A DNA stretch of 53,320 nucleotides from Hyphomicrobiales bacterium (GTDB lineage Bacteria > Pseudomonadota > Alphaproteobacteria > Rhizobiales > Xanthobacteraceae), in the NCBI GenBank assembly GCA_023269635.1, contig JAHFPN010000003.1, positions 1 to 53,320 of the forward strand, written 5' to 3'. Below the pieces are notes generated by a model. The model did no database searches and was not told where the DNA came from. It saw only the letters and a program-made list of their open reading frames with translations. The position numbers and the translations under genes are program-made. Shown here in pieces: positions 39,409 to 53,320 of the stretch (position 1 is its first letter; each line of letters starts with the position of its first letter).

Positions 39409-40247
39409 CGACGCTCCTTCTCGCCGAGATCGGCGAGCAACAGTGCGCGCAGCGCCGGCGTCACCTTGGGGCGCACGCCGAACCAGCGCTCGAAGCCCGG
39501 CACCGCCTGGTGCAGGAGCATGCCGAGACCGTCGATCACGGGATGGCCGCGGGCGCGGGCAGCGGCGAGCAGGCGCGTCTCCAACGGCACATAGACGATG
39601 TCATAGACCGCGGCGGCGCGCTTCAACGGCAAGAGATCGATCTCGAGCGACGGCTGCCCCTTCATGCCGAGCGAGGTGGTGTTGACCAAGAGGTCGGTTT
39701 CGGCGAGGCGCGGCGACAGCTCGGCAAAATCCATGACCGTGCATTTCTCGCCGAACTGCCGGGCGAGCGCCTCGCCGCGCGCCCGCGTCCGGTTCGCGAT
39801 CGCGATGCGGCGAACGCCCCGTTCGAGCAGCGCATAGATGACCCCGCGCGCGGCCCCGCCGGCGCCGAGCACGAGGGCCGTGACCGTGCGCTTCTCCCAG
39901 CCAGGCAGGCTCTCATCGAGATGCGCGGAAAAGCCATAGACGTCGGTATTGCTGCCGCAAAGTGCGCCATCCTCGAACCAGAGCGTGTTCGCGGCGCCGA
40001 GCGCGCGCGCCACTGGATCGGCGCGCTTCAGCTTGCGAAAGGCCGCTTCCTTGTGCGGGATCGTGACGTTGGCGCCCACGTATCGTTCGCCGAGACGGTC
40101 GAGGAAGCGCTCGATCGCTTCGGGCGCCACGTCCTCGCGCACGTAGTCACCCTCGATCCTGTGCTCTTTCAGCCAATAGCGGTGGATCAGCGGCGAGCGC
40201 GAATGCGCCACCGGATGGCCGATCACGCAGGCGCGGCGGAGGCTCAC
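39405..40247 (-). CDS. aroE: Shikimate dehydrogenase (NADP+)
   Basis: A 280-residue enzyme reducing 3-dehydroshikimate in aromatic amino acid synthesis. The substrate-binding N terminus ([22 protein letters not shown]), the catalytic Lys block ([15 protein letters not shown]), and the NADP-binding motif ([38 protein letters not shown]) are all present. It starts with GTG in a GTGA overlap with the maf stop. Confidence 0.95.
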
Positions 40248-40852
40248 GGCAGCAATCCTTCACGCCGGAAGAACGCGCAGAGCGGCAGCAGCGGCAGGCC
40301 GAGGATGGTGAAATGGTCGCCCTCGATCTGCTCGAACAGATGCACGCCGAGGCCTTCGAGCTGATAGGCACCGACACTCTCGGTCACCCGCTTGCCCACG
40401 GCGGCAAGATAGGCGTCGAGCGCGGCGGTCGAAAGCACGCGCATGGTGAGACGCGCGGTCGCGACCGTTTCGAACATGATCGTCTCGCCGCGCGCAACCG
40501 CGCAGGCGGAATGGAGCGCGTGGGTCTTGCCCGAAAGTGCCGCGAGCTGCTCGCGCGCGGCCGCGATGGTCGCGGGCTTGGAGAAGCGGCGGCCGTCGAG
40601 TGCAAGCGTCTGGTCGGCGCCGAGTACCAACGCGCCCGGCCGGCGGCGCGCGACCGCGCGCGCTTTCTCAGCTGCGAGCAACGACGCGATCGTCTCGGGC
40701 GCCGCACCGCGCTCGGCGGGCGGCGCCTCCAGCGCGCGTTCATCGATTTCGGCCGCGTCGACCTCGACCGGAATCCCGGCGGCCTCGAGCAACGAGCGGC
40801 GCACGGTGCTTTTTGAGGCGAGAACGAGCGGCGCGCCGCGCCACAGGCTCAC
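40244..40852 (-). CDS. maf: Maf-like nucleotide pyrophosphatase
   Basis: A 202-residue Maf/YhdE/YceF family protein that hydrolyses non-canonical or modified nucleoside triphosphates. The N-terminal [31 protein letters not shown] motif and the [16 protein letters not shown] block are typical. Which subfamily substrate (dTTP/UTP or m7GTP) applies cannot be decided here. It starts with GTG in a GTGA overlap with the ppsR stop and overlaps aroE likewise at its own end. Confidence 0.93.
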
Positions 40853-41700
40853 TGGCGCTCCGCCGCCTCGCGGCGACGCTCCTGCAGGAGCGAGAGCACG
40901 GCAGCCGCGGTCTCCTCGATCGAACGACGGGTGACGTCGATCGAGGGCCAGCCACGGCGGGCGCAGAGCTGCTTCGAGAATGCGATCTCTTGGGATACCG
41001 CCTGCCGATCCACATAAGCGGAGTCCGGCGGCACCGACTTCAGGCCCAGAAGCCGGTTTTGGCGGATCTGCACGATGCGCTCGGGCGAGGCATAAAGCCC
41101 GACCACGAGCGGCTTCGACAGCGTCTCGAGTTGCGGCGGCGGCGACACCCCGGGTACGAGCGGCACGTTCGCGGCCTTGATGCCGCGATTGGCGAGATAG
41201 ATGCTGGTCGGGGTCTTGGAGGTGCGCGACACGCCAACCAACACCACGTCGGCTTCCTCCAAATTCTCGAAGTGCTGGCCATCGTCGTGCATCATGGTGA
41301 AATTCAACGCATCGATGCGGTGGAAATAATCGGCATTCAGGAGATGCTGGGCGCCCACCCGCGGGGTCGTTTCGGTTCCGAGATAGCTTTGAAAGAGCGA
41401 TAGCACCGGGCCGAGCACCGAAAGAATCGGTAGGCCCAATTCGCGGCAGCGGCCTTCGAGGCGCTGGGCAATCTCACGGTCGACAAGCGTATAGAGCACG
41501 ATCCCGGGATTGGCTTCGATCTCGGCGATCACCGGATCGAGCCGTTTCAGCGACCGCACCATGGAATAGACATGCTCGATGGGCGAGACCGTCGCGTATT
41601 GCGCCGCAGCGGCGCGCCCGACGGTGATCAGCGTCTCACCGGTCGCGTCGGAGACAAGATGAAGATGGAAGTAGCTCGCGGCGGGCTGCTGTCGGGGCAT
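40849..41700 (-). CDS. ppsR: PEP synthase regulatory protein (DUF299/RP001 family)
   Basis: A 283-residue bifunctional kinase/pyrophosphorylase of the DUF299 family, which regulates PEP synthase or pyruvate phosphate dikinase by ADP-dependent threonine phosphorylation. The N terminus is [14 protein letters not shown] and the P-loop-like motif is [21 protein letters not shown]. The C-terminal [39 protein letters not shown] is the family signature. ATG 41700 is supported by the conserved start; the extension to 41757 is not. This is the homolog of Rickettsia RP001, the known left neighbour of alphaproteobacterial origins. It begins a five-gene coupled string running away from the putative oriC. 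Confidence 0.94.
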
Positions 41701-41991
41701 GGAAACCAGCCTGGAAGCTGTGAATCGGCGGGGAGAAAGGCACGCCCCTAGAGCCAACGCAAGGCCCGGCTGGGGACGTTACGGCATCGCATCCACACCG
41801 AGACCTGGGACGAAGCTTTTTGAGATAGAAAGTGAATTGTGGGACTAGATGAGCAATCGACTAGACGCAGAAGCGTCTTCTTCAGTGTATTTTAGTGATG
41901 ATTCAGCGGATCGTTCTGTGAATCTATTGTGCAGCCCCGGAGTTATCGTTATCGGGCTATCTAATAACTACAACAGTAAGATTCATAGAGA
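41701..41991. other. Putative chromosomal replication origin (oriC)
   Basis: A 291-bp non-coding interval between ppsR (RP001 family) and hemE. Its GC content falls visibly from about 41810 onward, the most AT-rich stretch of the window outside the right edge. Contents: four GANTC sites (41722, 41900, 41920, 41980); a DnaA-box-like 9-mer GCATCCACA (41789-41797; 7 of 9 to TTATCCACA); two TGTGAATC near-boxes (41719, 41917); a hairpin AGACGC-AGAA-GCGTCT (41863-41878); a repeated GACTAGA (41843, 41859); and two TTATCG units (41943-41954) beside an AT-rich run that may be the unwinding element. The RP001-hemE address is the established origin site in Caulobacter and Rickettsia. No perfect DnaA box is present, so functionality is inferred. 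Confidence 0.72.
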
Positions 41992-43050
41992 ATGGATTTG
42001 AAGGACGCAGTACAAGCGCAGAGTGGTGGACCGTTGATCGCAGTGCTTGATGGAGCCATTACCGACACTCCGCCACTCTGGATGATGCGTCAGGCTTGTC
42101 GCTATCTCCCGGAGTATCGGGAGGTTCGTACGAAAGCTGGCGGTTTCCTCGACCTTTGCCTCAATGCAGTGCTAGCGGCCGAAGTTACCCTGCAGCCGTT
42201 GCGCCGGTTCGAGCTCGATGCCGCGATCTTGTTCTCCGATATCTTGATCGTGCCATACGCGCTGGGGGTGAAGTTGTGGTTCGAGGACGGCGAGGGGCCG
42301 CGGCTGAGCCCAGTCGCGGATAGGCCGGGTTTCGAAGCAATGGGCCAAGCGCTTGCGGAAGCCGTGGTTGAACCGGTCTATGAAACGGCTCGACGCGTGC
42401 GCCAGGCGCTGGCGGCGGACCGAGCACTGATCGGGTTCTGCGGCGGGCCCTGGACGGTCGCGACCTATCTGGTGGCCGGGCGCGGAACCGCGGACAAGCG
42501 CGAGGCACTCGATCTCGCGCGGCGGGACCCCGCTCTCTTCAGCGATCTCATCGACCGACTTGCCTCGGCTTCGGCCGAGCACTTGATCGGCCAGCTGCGC
42601 GCCGGGGCCGACGTGGTGCAAATCTTCGATACTTGGGCCGGGGTGCTCGACGCCGAAGGGTTTCGCCGCTGGTGCCTCGGGCCGATGCGCGCGATTGTGA
42701 CGCGGGTGCGACAGGCAATGCCGAACGCGCGCGTGATCCTGTTCCCGAAAGGCGTGGCGCTGCCGCTCCTGCACGAGCTCGCCCAAACGGTCCAACCGCA
42801 GGCGATCGGGATCGATTCTGCTACCGGCCGCGCCGAAGTGCGCGCCTTGCTCTCGCCGATCGCGGCGGTCCAGGGCAATCTCGACCCGGAGATCCTGCTT
42901 CGCGGGGGCGAAGCGCTCGACCGCGCGGTGGACGCTATTCTCGATGCGTTCCACGGTACGCGCCATATCTTCAATCTCGGGCATGGCGTGCTGCCCGCCA
43001 CGCCGGTTGCGCACGTCGAGCGCATGATCGCGCGCGTCAAGAGGTGCTGA
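41992..43050 (+). CDS. hemE: Uroporphyrinogen decarboxylase
   Basis: A 352-residue TIM-barrel enzyme that removes four carboxylates from uroporphyrinogen III in heme synthesis. The N-terminal signature normally reads MRQAGRYLPEYR; here it is WMMRQACRYLPEYR (a TGT codon, Cys for Gly). The remaining family blocks are intact: AAILFSDILIVPYALG, GFCGGPWTVATYLVAG, VVQIFDTWAGVL, FNLGHGVLP. The first ~60 codons are visibly less GC-rich than the rest, blending with the origin region. ATG 41992 has only a weak AGAG close to it. The stop overlaps the hemJ start as TGATG. Confidence 0.95.
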   Translation: MDLKDAVQAQSGGPLIAVLDGAITDTPPLWMMRQACRYLPEYREVRTKAGGFLDLCLNAVLAAEVTLQPLRRFELDAAILFSDILIVPYALGVKLWFEDGEGPRLSPVADRPGFEAMGQALAEAVVEPVYETARRVRQALAADRALIGFCGGPWTVATYLVAGRGTADKREALDLARRDPALFSDLIDRLASASAEHLIGQLRAGADVVQIFDTWAGVLDAEGFRRWCLGPMRAIVTRVRQAMPNARVILFPKGVALPLLHELAQTVQPQAIGIDSATGRAEVRALLSPIAAVQGNLDPEILLRGGEALDRAVDAILDAFHGTRHIFNLGHGVLPATPVAHVERMIARVKRC

Positions 43051-44973: not shown

Positions 44974-46986
<2,013 letters not shown>

Positions 46987-47003
46987 GGGCGTTTCCGACA
47001 CGC

Positions 47004-48433: not shown

Positions 48434-48444
48434 GCGGCAATTCG

Positions 48445-48458
48445 GTTTCACGTGAAAC
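48445..48458. other. parS site 1 (ParB-binding centromere)
   Basis: The 14-bp palindrome GTTTCACGTGAAAC, flanked by G and A, matches 15 of 16 positions of the canonical bacterial parS TGTTTCACGTGAAACA. It lies in the mnmE-mnmG gap, about 3.4 kb upstream of parB and 6.5 kb from the putative oriC. ParB loads here as a CTP-dependent clamp to begin chromosome segregation. Confidence 0.9.
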
Positions 48459-48524
48459 AGCGGAAGGCGCGTGCGACTTTGACGCGCCTGGTTGGCTTCG
48501 ATAGATCGCGCGCGGGAGCAATCG

Positions 48525-50372: not shown

Positions 50373-51046
50373 TCTCGGCCGAGGTGCTCAAACAGGACCG
50401 CGCGGCCGCGCTGCGGCTGTTTCCCGTTTCACGTGAAACGGAAGCGCGGCTCGATCGCCTCGTCGAGCTGTTGTTGCGCTGGCAAAAAGCGGTGCAATTG
50501 GTAGCGCCATCGACGCTGCCGAAGCTCTGGACCCGGCACATCGCCGACAGCTTGCAGCTCATAGAAGTGGCTGGAAGCGCCAAACGTTGGATCGACCTCG
50601 GCAGCGGAGCAGGATTTCCGGGACTTGTACTGGCGATTGCTCTAGCGGAGGTCCCGGGCGCGGTCGTGCATCTGGTGGAGAGCGATCAGCGCAAGGCCGC
50701 GTTCCTGCGCGAAGCGGTACGCGCGACCGATGCAGCCGCGGAAGTCCACGCCGCGCGTGTCGAGTCGGTTGCGGAACGATTCGCCGGCAAAGTGGAAATC
50801 GTCACCGCGCGGGCGCTGGCGCCGCTGCCGCGATTGCTCGAGCTCGCGGAGCCGCTGCTAAGTGCCGGAGCGCGCGGGATTTTTTTGAAGGGGCAAGATG
50901 TGGGTAGGGAATTGACCGAGGCCGCTAAATCTTGGAACATCGCTGCTGAATCGATCCCGAGCCGCACCGACCCGCGCGGCCGCATCCTGGTGGTGGATCG
51001 CGTGGTGCGTCAAAAGGTCGCAGGTCGAAGCCCGAGCCGGAAATAG
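50369..51046 (+). CDS. rsmG: 16S rRNA (guanine-527-N7)-methyltransferase
   Basis: A 225-residue SAM-dependent methyltransferase (GidB) that methylates G527; its loss usually gives low-level streptomycin resistance. The motif I is [20 protein letters not shown], and [21 protein letters not shown] and [20 protein letters not shown] follow. The N-terminal stretch [10 protein letters not shown] is encoded by the second parS palindrome. The start overlaps the mnmG stop by four bases, and parA begins 5 bp after its stop. Confidence 0.95.
50426..50439. other. parS site 2, inside rsmG
   Basis: A second exact GTTTCACGTGAAAC, flanked by C and G so that the full palindrome is 16 bp. It lies within the rsmG coding sequence and encodes the residues VSRET. 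It is 1,981 bp from parS1 and about 1.4 kb from the parB start. Its flanks match canonical parS at 14 of 16 positions. Confidence 0.9.
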
Positions 51047-51051
51047 CCTCG

Positions 51052-51858
51052 ATGAACCAGCCCAAGCGCCCTCGCGTGCTGGCGCTCGCCAACCAGAAAG
51101 GCGGCGTCGGCAAAACCACGACCGCGATCAATCTCGGCACCGCGCTGGCGGCCATCGGCGAGCGCGTGTTGATCGTCGATCTCGATCCGCAGGGCAACGC
51201 CTCGACCGGGCTCGGCATCGACCGCAAGAGCCGCAAGCGCTCGACCTACGACGTGCTGATGAACGACGACGCGCTCGCAGGCGTCGCGCTCGAGACCGCG
51301 GTGCCGCAGCTCTCGATCGCGCCGGCGACGATGGATCTTTCGGGCTTCGAGCTCGAAGTCGCGCAACAGCGCGACCGCGCCTTTCGCCTGCGCAAGGCGA
51401 TCCATGCGCTTAAACCCGCGGACGCCGGCGGCTACAGCTACGTGCTGGTCGATTGTCCGCCGTCGCTGAACTTGCTCACCGTCAACGCGATGGCGGCGGC
51501 GGACGCGATCCTGGTGCCGCTGCAATGCGAGTTCTTCGCGCTCGAAGGTCTGTCGCAGCTTTTGAAGACGGTGGAGCAGGTGAAGTCGACGCTCAATCCC
51601 ACGCTCAGCATCCACGGCATCGTGCTCACCATGTACGACCGGCGCAACAATCTCTCCGATCAGGTGGTGGCCGACGTGCGCCAGTTCATGGGCGACAAGG
51701 TCTACGACACCATCATCCCGCGCAACGTGCGCGTCTCCGAAGCGCCGTCCTACGGCAAGCCGGTGCTGTTGTACGATCTCAATTGCGTGGGCTCGCAGGC
51801 TTATCTGAAATTGGCTTCCGAAATCGTTCAGCGCGAGCGCGCGCTCGCGGCGGCGTGA
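51052..51858 (+). CDS. parA: Chromosome partitioning ATPase ParA
   Basis: A 268-residue deviant-Walker ATPase that pulls ParB-parS complexes during chromosome segregation. The deviant Walker A is LANQKGGVGKTTTAINLGTALA. Walker A' (VLIVDLDPQGNASTGLG) and Walker B (YSYVLVDCPPSLNLLTVNAMAAADAILVPLQCEFFALEGLSQLLKT) are clear, and the C terminus (IPRNVRVSEAPSYGKPVLLYD) is the chromosomal Soj type. There is no N-terminal HTH, so it is not a plasmid autoregulator. parB starts 5 bp downstream. Confidence 0.97.
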   Translation: MNQPKRPRVLALANQKGGVGKTTTAINLGTALAAIGERVLIVDLDPQGNASTGLGIDRKSRKRSTYDVLMNDDALAGVALETAVPQLSIAPATMDLSGFELEVAQQRDRAFRLRKAIHALKPADAGGYSYVLVDCPPSLNLLTVNAMAAADAILVPLQCEFFALEGLSQLLKTVEQVKSTLNPTLSIHGIVLTMYDRRNNLSDQVVADVRQFMGDKVYDTIIPRNVRVSEAPSYGKPVLLYDLNCVGSQAYLKLASEIVQRERALAAA

Positions 51859-51863
51859 CAGCG

Positions 51864-52745
51864 ATGGCCGAGGAAGCGCACCGTTCGCGATTGGGCCGGG
51901 GGCTCGCCGCGCTCATCGGCGACATCGGCGATGAGAGCGCGGCGCTCGAGCGCGCGCGCGGCCAGCGCCGCGTGCCGATCGAATTCGTGAAGCCCAACCC
52001 GCGCAATCCGCGCAAGCACTATCCGGAAGCCGAGCTCGAGGAGCTGGCGGCATCCGTGCGCGAGAAGGGAATCCTGCAGCCGATCCTGGTGCGCACCGTC
52101 AGCGGCGCGGCCGACGCGTTCGAGATCGTGGCCGGCGAGCGGCGCTGGCGCGCGGCGCAGCGCGCCGGGCTGCACGACGTTCCGGTCTTGCTCATGGAGA
52201 TCAGCGACCGCGAGGCGCTCGAGGTCGCGATCGTGGAGAACGTCCAGCGCACCGATCTCAACGCGATCGAGGAGGCGACCGGCTACGAGTCGCTGACCCA
52301 GCAGTTCGACTACGGGCCGGCCGAGATCGCGCGCGTGGTCGGCAAAAGCCGGAGCCACGTGGCGAACACGCTGCGGCTCCTCAATCTGCCGAAGAGCGTG
52401 CAGCGCTATCTGATCGAGGGAAAGCTCACCGCCGGCCACGCGCGCGCACTGCTGGCGCACGACAATCCGGAGGCGCTCGCGCGTGCGATCGTTGCCAAGG
52501 GCCTGAGCGTGCGCGAGGTCGAGGCGCTGGTGCAGGAGGGGGCGAGCGCGCGTGGCAAGCCCTCGCGTGCGCGCCCGCGCCGGGTCAAGGACGCGGATAC
52601 GGCGGCGCTGGAGAAGCGGCTCTCGGATGCGCTCGGGCTGGTGGTGGAGATCGTGCAGCGCGGCAGCGGCGGCGAGCTACGCATCCGCTACAAGAATTTC
52701 GAGCAGCTCGACGCGGTGGCGCGGAAGCTCGGGGCAAGGCGGTGA
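51864..52745 (+). CDS. parB: Chromosome partitioning protein ParB
   Basis: A 293-residue CTPase clamp that binds parS. The N terminus RSRLGRGLAALIGD is the ParA-stimulating peptide. The CTP-binding region (VPIEFVKPNPRNPRKHYPEAELEELAASVREKGILQPILVR, VAGERRWRAAQRAG, VAIVENVQRTDLNAIEEATGY) is followed by the HTH (GPAEIARVVGKSRSHVANTLRLL) and a C-terminal dimerisation domain ending ELRIRYKNFEQLDAVARKL. Both cognate parS sites lie within 3.5 kb upstream. ATG 51864 is preferred over an in-frame GTG at 51855. Confidence 0.97.
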   Translation: MAEEAHRSRLGRGLAALIGDIGDESAALERARGQRRVPIEFVKPNPRNPRKHYPEAELEELAASVREKGILQPILVRTVSGAADAFEIVAGERRWRAAQRAGLHDVPVLLMEISDREALEVAIVENVQRTDLNAIEEATGYESLTQQFDYGPAEIARVVGKSRSHVANTLRLLNLPKSVQRYLIEGKLTAGHARALLAHDNPEALARAIVAKGLSVREVEALVQEGASARGKPSRARPRRVKDADTAALEKRLSDALGLVVEIVQRGSGGELRIRYKNFEQLDAVARKLGARR

Positions 52746-52856
52746 GTGGACAAAATGGCAGTTTTTGACGCCGCTCTGCGTTGCGGAATTCCAGTTTCGG
52801 TATAACAATCGGATGAATAACGATATTTTCGGAACGGCAATCGAGGCGTGTTGAAA
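52746..52856. other. AT-rich gap after parB
   Basis: A 111-bp stretch whose base composition drops sharply from the flanking parB gene. It shows no recognisable terminator or promoter; a TATAAC sequence (52801-52806) could serve as a -10 for the following small gene. The change in composition suggests recently acquired DNA between parB and the IS element. Confidence 0.4.
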
Positions 52857-53204
52857 ATGCGTAACGTTGTTGTTGCGCTAGTGCTTGCGGTCCTCTCAAT
52901 TGGCATTTGGGAAGCGGAAACATCACGACCGCTTTCCGAAATCGAAAAACAGAAAATAAATGCAAGCTGCAAATATGAAACCCATAAGGATAGTTCCGTA
53001 AAAGACTTCAGCGGATCGTATGGGGCTTCCAGGCGTGCGCTCATCAAAGCTTATTGTTTTGTACGAGGCGACCATCAAGCGATTGGTGCCGCCGCCACGA
53101 TCCTCATCGGTTTCTTCACGCTGGGTCTTTGGATCGCAACACTTCAGCTTCGCAAAATTACTCAACGTCAAGCTGATCATCTTCAACGTATTGAGCGCGC
53201 TTAG
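52857..53204 (+). CDS. Small membrane protein of unknown function, probably truncated
   Basis: A predicted 115-residue protein I do not recognise. It has an N-terminal hydrophobic segment (MRNVVVALVLAVLSIGIW) and a second at about 73-92 (AIGAAATILIGFFTLGLWIATLQ), then a polar helix ending RITQRQ-type sequence (QLRKITQRQADHLQRIERA). Codon use is clearly less GC-rich than in parB, pointing to foreign origin. ATG 52857 has GAGG ten bases upstream; a GTG at 52848 is closer to it. The TAG stop falls exactly where the IS element appears to begin, so the original C terminus may be lost. Confidence 0.55.
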   Translation: MRNVVVALVLAVLSIGIWEAETSRPLSEIEKQKINASCKYETHKDSSVKDFSGSYGASRRALIKAYCFVRGDHQAIGAAATILIGFFTLGLWIATLQLRKITQRQADHLQRIERA

Positions 53205-53220
53205 AGTCCGTTTGAGAATG
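53204..53220. mobile_element. Putative terminal repeat of an IS5-type element
   Basis: The sequence GAGTCCGTTTGAGAATG lies immediately before the transposase 3' end and is a plausible terminal inverted repeat for an IS5/IS427-type element, which typically duplicates TA. A TA dinucleotide (53202-53203) precedes it. The other end lies outside the window, so the repeat cannot be confirmed. Confidence 0.5.
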
Positions 53221-53224
53221 CATT

Positions 53225-53320
53225 TTAGTGGGCGATCCGCCTGAGGAGTAGGCTTCCGAGAGCGACGTGGATCATGGCTTTGGAGACGTCGATGCGCCGT
53301 TCGTAGTCACGGACGAGGCG
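53225..53320 (-). CDS. IS5-family transposase, C-terminal fragment at the window edge
   Basis: The minus strand from the window end translates as RLVRDYERRIDVSKAMIHV and then ALGSLLLRRIAH before a TAA stop (53225-53227), 31 residues in all. This is the typical C terminus of IS5-family DDE transposases, where the R-R-L-x-x-D-Y-E block follows the catalytic Glu region. The rest of the gene is beyond the window, so it is unknown whether the element is intact. Confidence 0.8.
   Translation of the reverse strand, partial: RLVRDYERRIDVSKAMIHVALGSLLLRRIAH

Follow-up and report, generated by a model that had tools for sequence, protein, structure and literature searches.

Genes and features at the locus

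The candidate origin considered in this study is the non-coding gap between the divergent genes ppsR and hemE, located within the window, that is, the whole 53-kb stretch of DNA that was analysed. The gap beside hemE is the known oriC site in Caulobacter crescentus (Cori) and Rickettsia prowazekii. The window represents contig C123 of a 2.67-Mb assembly in 232 contigs that is 83% complete, and the host was placed by HemE matches in the Rhizobiales, in the neighbourhood of the Xanthobacteraceae. The coordinates of all features are collected in Table 1.

Table 1. Positions of the candidate origin, its predicted sites and the surrounding genes within the window.
Feature	Position	Strand	Basis or remark
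ppsR (RP001/DUF299), origin-flanking gene	40849..41700	-	NCBIfam NF003742 over cut-off, 345 bits
Candidate oriC, the entire non-coding ppsR-hemE gap	41701..41991	.	291 bp
DnaA box 1 (candidate), CGATTCACA	41719..41727	-	ATNCACA core intact; position and strand of relatives' box 1; overlaps GANTC 41722-41726
GANTC (CcrM) site GAATC	41722..41726	.	motif; inside DnaA box 1
Weak hexamer-type box TTCTCCCCG	41729..41737	-	score 5.0 (relatives-trained matrix); box 1 lies 10 bp away
W-box-like site ACGTCCCCA, core TCCCCA	41771..41779	-	score 7.4; offset and strand equal to TTCTCCCCA in L003 and L085
DnaA box 2 (candidate), GCATCCACA	41789..41797	+	strongest, score 9.7; 70 bp from box 1, opposite orientation
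GANTC site GATTC	41900..41904	.	motif
DnaA box 3 (candidate), AGATTCACA	41917..41925	-	overlaps GANTC 41920-41924; starts 75 bp before gap end
GANTC site GAATC	41920..41924	.	motif; inside DnaA box 3
Probable duplex-unwinding element, with tandem TTATCG units and CTAATAACTACAACAGTAAG	41943..42002	.	lowest duplex stability
GANTC site GATTC	41980..41984	.	alignment; in conserved AAGATTC just before hemE
hemE, origin-flanking gene	41992..43050	+	TIGR01464 over cut-off
parS-like site GGTTTCACGTGAAACA	48444..48459	.	1 mismatch; 6.5 kb from gap
parS-like site CGTTTCACGTGAAACG	50425..50440	.	2 mismatches; 8.4 kb from gap
parA and parB	51052..52745	+	ParA-type matches below equivalog cut-offs; TIGR00180 parB_part over cut-off

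The genes on one side of the gap point left (maf, aroE, coaE and genes for a DnaQ-like exonuclease, a Tim44-like protein and MltA), and those on the other side point right (hemE, hemJ, rho, mnmE, mnmG, rsmG, parA and parB, with hemJ assigned by eye). These gene calls bear out the polarity switch that had been described in a sequence-only reading of the window, with one DUF255 gene (44974-47001, pointing left) as the exception to the rightward set. The same reading had reported parS and parAB within 10 kb of the gap, in agreement with the sites and genes in Table 1; the number of parS matches in the window was equalled in 0 of 100 shuffles. It had also called the gap AT-rich and the longest non-coding stretch of the window. 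The former holds, as the GC content of the gap is 0.50 versus 0.62-0.72 in 2-kb tiles (approximately 67% in the surroundings), while the latter is not proven because the 480 bp following parB hold only one small uncharacterised ORF.

Over a length of 291 bp, the AT content beyond parB (52.7-53.0 kb) slightly exceeds that of the gap. This AT-rich end of the window (52746-53320) contains an uncharacterised 118-aa ORF, and a minus-strand fragment at the contig end resembles, by eye, the end of an IS transposase; the contig is therefore likely to be broken at an insertion sequence. An RNA element at the locus was considered and rejected, with zero Rfam matches for 40.5-43.0 kb at E values up to 1.

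Homology and DnaA boxes of the gap

The divergent ppsR-gap-hemE order was seen in 86 fetched loci (the window included, and a few genomes represented twice). A profile of the whole gaps of 41 relatives, from which the window was left out, matched positions 41715-41810 with an E value of 9e-9, the next match in the window having an E value of 1.1. Additionally, the first ~125 bp of the gap were modelled from 30 relatives, again with the window left out, and the best match of this model (R1) in the whole assembly was 41714-41813 (E 3e-10, 40.9 bits). The runner-up (25.1 bits, E 2.6e-5; contig C95) was rejected as an origin, being located in this genome within the coding sequence of radA; similar weak matches elsewhere were also discarded. 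Among related genomes, R1 matched 58 of 101, and the strong matches for which hemE or ppsR coordinates allowed a comparison sit at this locus; many of the 58 supplied training sequences, and the count shows the location of the element rather than its blind discovery. The 43 genomes searched in which R1 found no match are mostly outside the family, with some inside. A profile from only the three nearest relatives gave a weak match (E 0.0085 for 41906-41991). The gap measures 276-292 bp in the window and these three relatives and mostly 320-370 bp in the remaining family. In many relatives a block CATGAGTCCAATC, which includes a GANTC, is found ~45 bp before hemE, where the window has GAGTTATCGTTATCGGGC instead.

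The sequence-only reading saw no perfect DnaA box in the gap, and a strict scan for TTATNCACA with at most one mismatch likewise found none there, matches across the window being at chance level. A nine-base DnaA-box matrix was trained on the gaps of 47 relatives, with strand competition in the motif fit because CTGTGGACA is near-palindromic. Its consensus is CTGTCCACA, position 3 being A or G and position 7 being A or C, and it is TGTCCACA and CTGTGGAC rather than TTATCCACA that abound in the relatives' gaps; the TCCCCA form is the Caulobacter W-box (PMC4285127). When the gap was scanned with a weight matrix, as had been proposed earlier, a weak box set was found at the relatives' positions: the four best sites and a fifth at -75 coincide with the relatives' boxes in both position and strand. 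The 70-bp spacing of box 1 and box 2 matches most relatives, box 3 falls within the relatives' minus-strand box peak (-80 to -73), and TCCCCA-type sites ~10 bp after box 1 also occur in several relatives and in G079 and G023. The sites listed in the sequence-only reading, namely GCATCCACA, two copies of TGTGAATC and two TTATCG units, are all present, and the box-like ones among them correspond to candidate DnaA boxes of Table 1.

The expectation of a sparse or divergent set of DnaA sites was also realised, the boxes being weaker than in nearly all relatives with their positions kept. Two sites reach at least 6 bits in the window gap versus a median of six in relatives, and the DnaA-box score of the gap is near the bottom of the clade. 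The sum of the top five box scores is reached by 5% of gap shuffles (relatives have z values of 2.3-7.6), and one other tile of the window (38413) outscores the gap by the matrix. The ATNCACA core occurs three times in the gap versus 0.09 expected from dinucleotide shuffles (0 of 5,000 reach three), a count that none of the 291-bp tiles elsewhere in the 53-kb window attains. A changed DnaA specificity is an unlikely reason for the weak boxes because the domain IV recognition region of the host's own DnaA is identical to that of the relatives, in a comparison that included an E. coli DnaA sequence.

Box scores among the weakest of the clade would also be explained if the gap were the decaying remnant of a former origin in a lineage that has moved to another one. 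We consider such decay highly improbable, as the three CACA-type boxes retain both their ATNCACA core and their positions, the spacing and the unstable stretch persist, DnaA domain IV shows no change, and the 83%-complete assembly has no comparable non-coding match elsewhere.

Duplex stability and regulatory sites

At lengths of 40, 60, 100 and 200 bp alike, the stretch of lowest stability in the window is located in the gap or starts there. The 40-bp stretch starts at 41958 and the 60-bp stretch at 41943, with the lowest stability at 41958-41998 beside hemE, and the least stable region takes in part of the tandem TTATCG stretch. In the DnaA-trio, or basal unwinding, system a DnaA box is followed by GAT-type trinucleotide repeats. 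TAATAA and CAACAG-like triplets were noticed in 41958-41978.

These results bear on the possibility that the origin is the parS cluster at 48.4-50.4 kb, where the two parS-like sites lie, rather than the gap. Such a placement would resemble that of the Oligotropha carboxidovorans origin, which Ori-Finder located by four tgtttcacg motifs (PMC3091675). However, TGTTTCACG makes up one half of the ParB site TGTTTCACGTGAAACA, and tgtttcacg counts probably detect parS; moreover, the box array of the gap is absent from every other 291-bp tile of the window, and the gap is also the least stable stretch. An origin at the parS cluster is therefore given almost no credence here. As the tgtttcacg motifs are ParB-site halves, the published Oligotropha prediction may itself mark parS rather than oriC.

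GANTC sites are enriched in the relatives' gaps, with 109 observed versus 43 +/- 7 in shuffles. The last 70 bp of the gap contain GANTC in 32 of 33 relatives, and the gap ends have 2.1 sites per 70 bp versus 0.23 in GC-matched genomic windows. A rise in GANTC around the origin has already been described for Alphaproteobacteria (PMC9836097). The window gap has four sites (p 0.04 by shuffling), of which two fall inside DnaA boxes, an overlap seen in only two of the 33 relatives (L004 and L097). A RAMA-domain methyltransferase of CcrM type is encoded on contig C108. GANTC clustering at the hemE end is a general feature, and the overlap with the boxes is the sole new lead. Because TGTGAATC occurs twice with both methylatable adenines within the 9-mer, weak boxes may double as CcrM sites, and methylation of the boxes could gate DnaA binding after firing, an idea that we offer as a long shot. 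Such gating could, speculatively, be a CcrM counterpart of the Dam/SeqA block for an origin that depends on DnaA.

Clustered CcrM sites are also a property of repABC origins (PMC6090056), whose initiator is RepC and not DnaA, whereas the locus in the window is of chromosomal type and includes hemE, rho, mnmEG and parAB. A repABC replicon origin was rejected: repC does not occur among the identified neighbours, which are chromosomal housekeeping genes, and the parA product scores below the RepA equivalog cut-off (106.9 versus 348 bits).

Among other regulatory sites, no CtrA site (TTAA-N7-TTAA) with fewer than two mismatches was found in the gap, and the matches to the IHF sequence WATCAANNNNTTR are poor, with two mismatches each. 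Perfect TTAA-N7-TTAA sites were noticed in the hemE-proximal gap of L005, L006, L016, L094 and other relatives (Xanthobacter-type and some others), for example GTTAATCAACCGTTAAG. A review states that CtrA sites are not seen in origins outside Caulobacter and possibly Rickettsia (PMC4468827).

The gap resembles Caulobacter Cori and the Rickettsia origin in its place beside hemE, its AT-rich stretch and the nearby parS and parAB, and it shares with Cori the division of DnaA boxes into strong and weak TCCCCA classes (PMC4285127). Unlike Cori, it contains neither a CtrA site nor a TGATCCACA G-box within one mismatch, and the box consensus of its clade is CTGTCCACA/TTATCCACA-like. With the ppsR-hemE gaps of other Rhizobiales and Xanthobacteraceae it has in common the neighbourhood, homologous sequence, the opposed boxes 1 and 2 placed 70 bp apart, the GANTC cluster and the AT-rich end beside hemE; it differs from them in being shorter, in having weaker boxes, and in two boxes with TTCACA that overlap GANTC. 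The same TTCACA half is found in the Helicobacter pylori DnaA box TCATTCACA (PMC4285127), which is cited solely as a precedent for T at position 5 of a DnaA box, the origin architecture being unrelated. A literature search on hemE origins of Bradyrhizobium and Sinorhizobium yielded nothing usable.

The gap as probable chromosome origin

Whole-chromosome GC skew was examined in relatives, the host's own assembly being split among 232 contigs, with dnaA on a separate one (C188). It was determined from sampled 20-kb pieces rather than full curves. In the complete relative G027, the best two-arm fit has its origin at 0.74-0.84 Mb and its terminus opposite, at 3.1 Mb; hemE is located at 0.783 Mb and dnaA at 0.272 Mb, and the fit gives an R2 of 0.85 with the origin at hemE versus 0.60 at dnaA. 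At fine scale, the skew of this genome reaches its minimum at 0.832 Mb, a distance of 48 kb from the gap. For G013, the R2 is 0.47 at hemE versus 0.01 at dnaA. The skew fit is weak in G055, with an R2 not above 0.19, and for G024 the best fit puts the origin at a place other than this locus. Within the window, skew is approximately 0 on the left of the gap and +0.049 on the right, and the cumulative minimum falls at 39507, 2.2 kb from the gap, both values being confounded by gene orientation. In the two informative complete relatives (G027 and G013), the skew switch is approximately at this locus and not at dnaA.

A location between divergent genes is also what would be expected of a mere promoter region serving ppsR and the hemE-hemJ-rho operon, with GANTC acting in a GcrA/CcrM-type promoter and the origin located elsewhere, such as near dnaA. 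GANTC is a known promoter element in Alphaproteobacteria (PMC9836097), and AAGATTC directly precedes hemE. Two natural rearrangements separate the element from hemE: in G079, hemE is 1.03 Mb from the locus, and in G023 it is absent from the genome, yet in both the element still adjoins ppsR (loci L263 and L253, respectively) and keeps its boxes and GANTC-rich end. Because the element stays by ppsR when hemE has moved or is missing, these genome comparisons exclude a purely hemE-specific role, that is, that of a hemE promoter alone. The gap could still serve hemJ and rho as a promoter for the rest of the operon, but this role leaves the boxes unexplained. The fixed register of the DnaA boxes in the gap, the misfit of the G027 and G013 skew to an origin at dnaA, and the single box over threshold in the 900 bp around the host's own dnaA start all argue against a promoter with the origin elsewhere, which we judge to be very unlikely.

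Combined, these results suggest that the gap is very probably the DnaA-dependent oriC of the main chromosome, of the hemE-linked alphaproteobacterial kind, with a weak box set and without CtrA sites. The features of a hemE-linked oriC that are present include the ppsR and hemE flanks, a cluster of DnaA boxes, a melting stretch and homology to the relatives' gap. The proposal of a chromosome origin made in the sequence-only reading is thereby strengthened, with the homology, the position and spacing of the boxes, the lowest duplex stability, the retention of the element without hemE and the skew in two relatives all in its favour.

From the homology, box positions, instability and presence of dnaA and a CcrM-type gene, we infer a possible course of DnaA binding, melting, firing and methylation at this oriC. 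ATP-DnaA would bind the strongest box, GCATCCACA, and would occupy the weaker ppsR-side boxes and the box 75 bp before hemE cooperatively. The DnaA assembly would melt the unstable stretch beside hemE (~41943-42002), where the helicase would be loaded and from which forks would depart both ways, and ParB on the nearby parS sites would then segregate the new origins. After firing, GANTC would remain hemimethylated in the melting region and within two of the boxes until methylation by CcrM, an interval that could couple the origin to the cell cycle.

The assignment would locate the origin for an uncultured lineage, and the loss or movement of hemE in G023 and G079 provides a natural separation of the origin from hemE. 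As the boxes follow another consensus, the hemE-linked origins of this group are easily missed by TTATCCACA scans. Whether methylation controls a DnaA-dependent alphaproteobacterial origin can be tested directly on the clustered CcrM sites.
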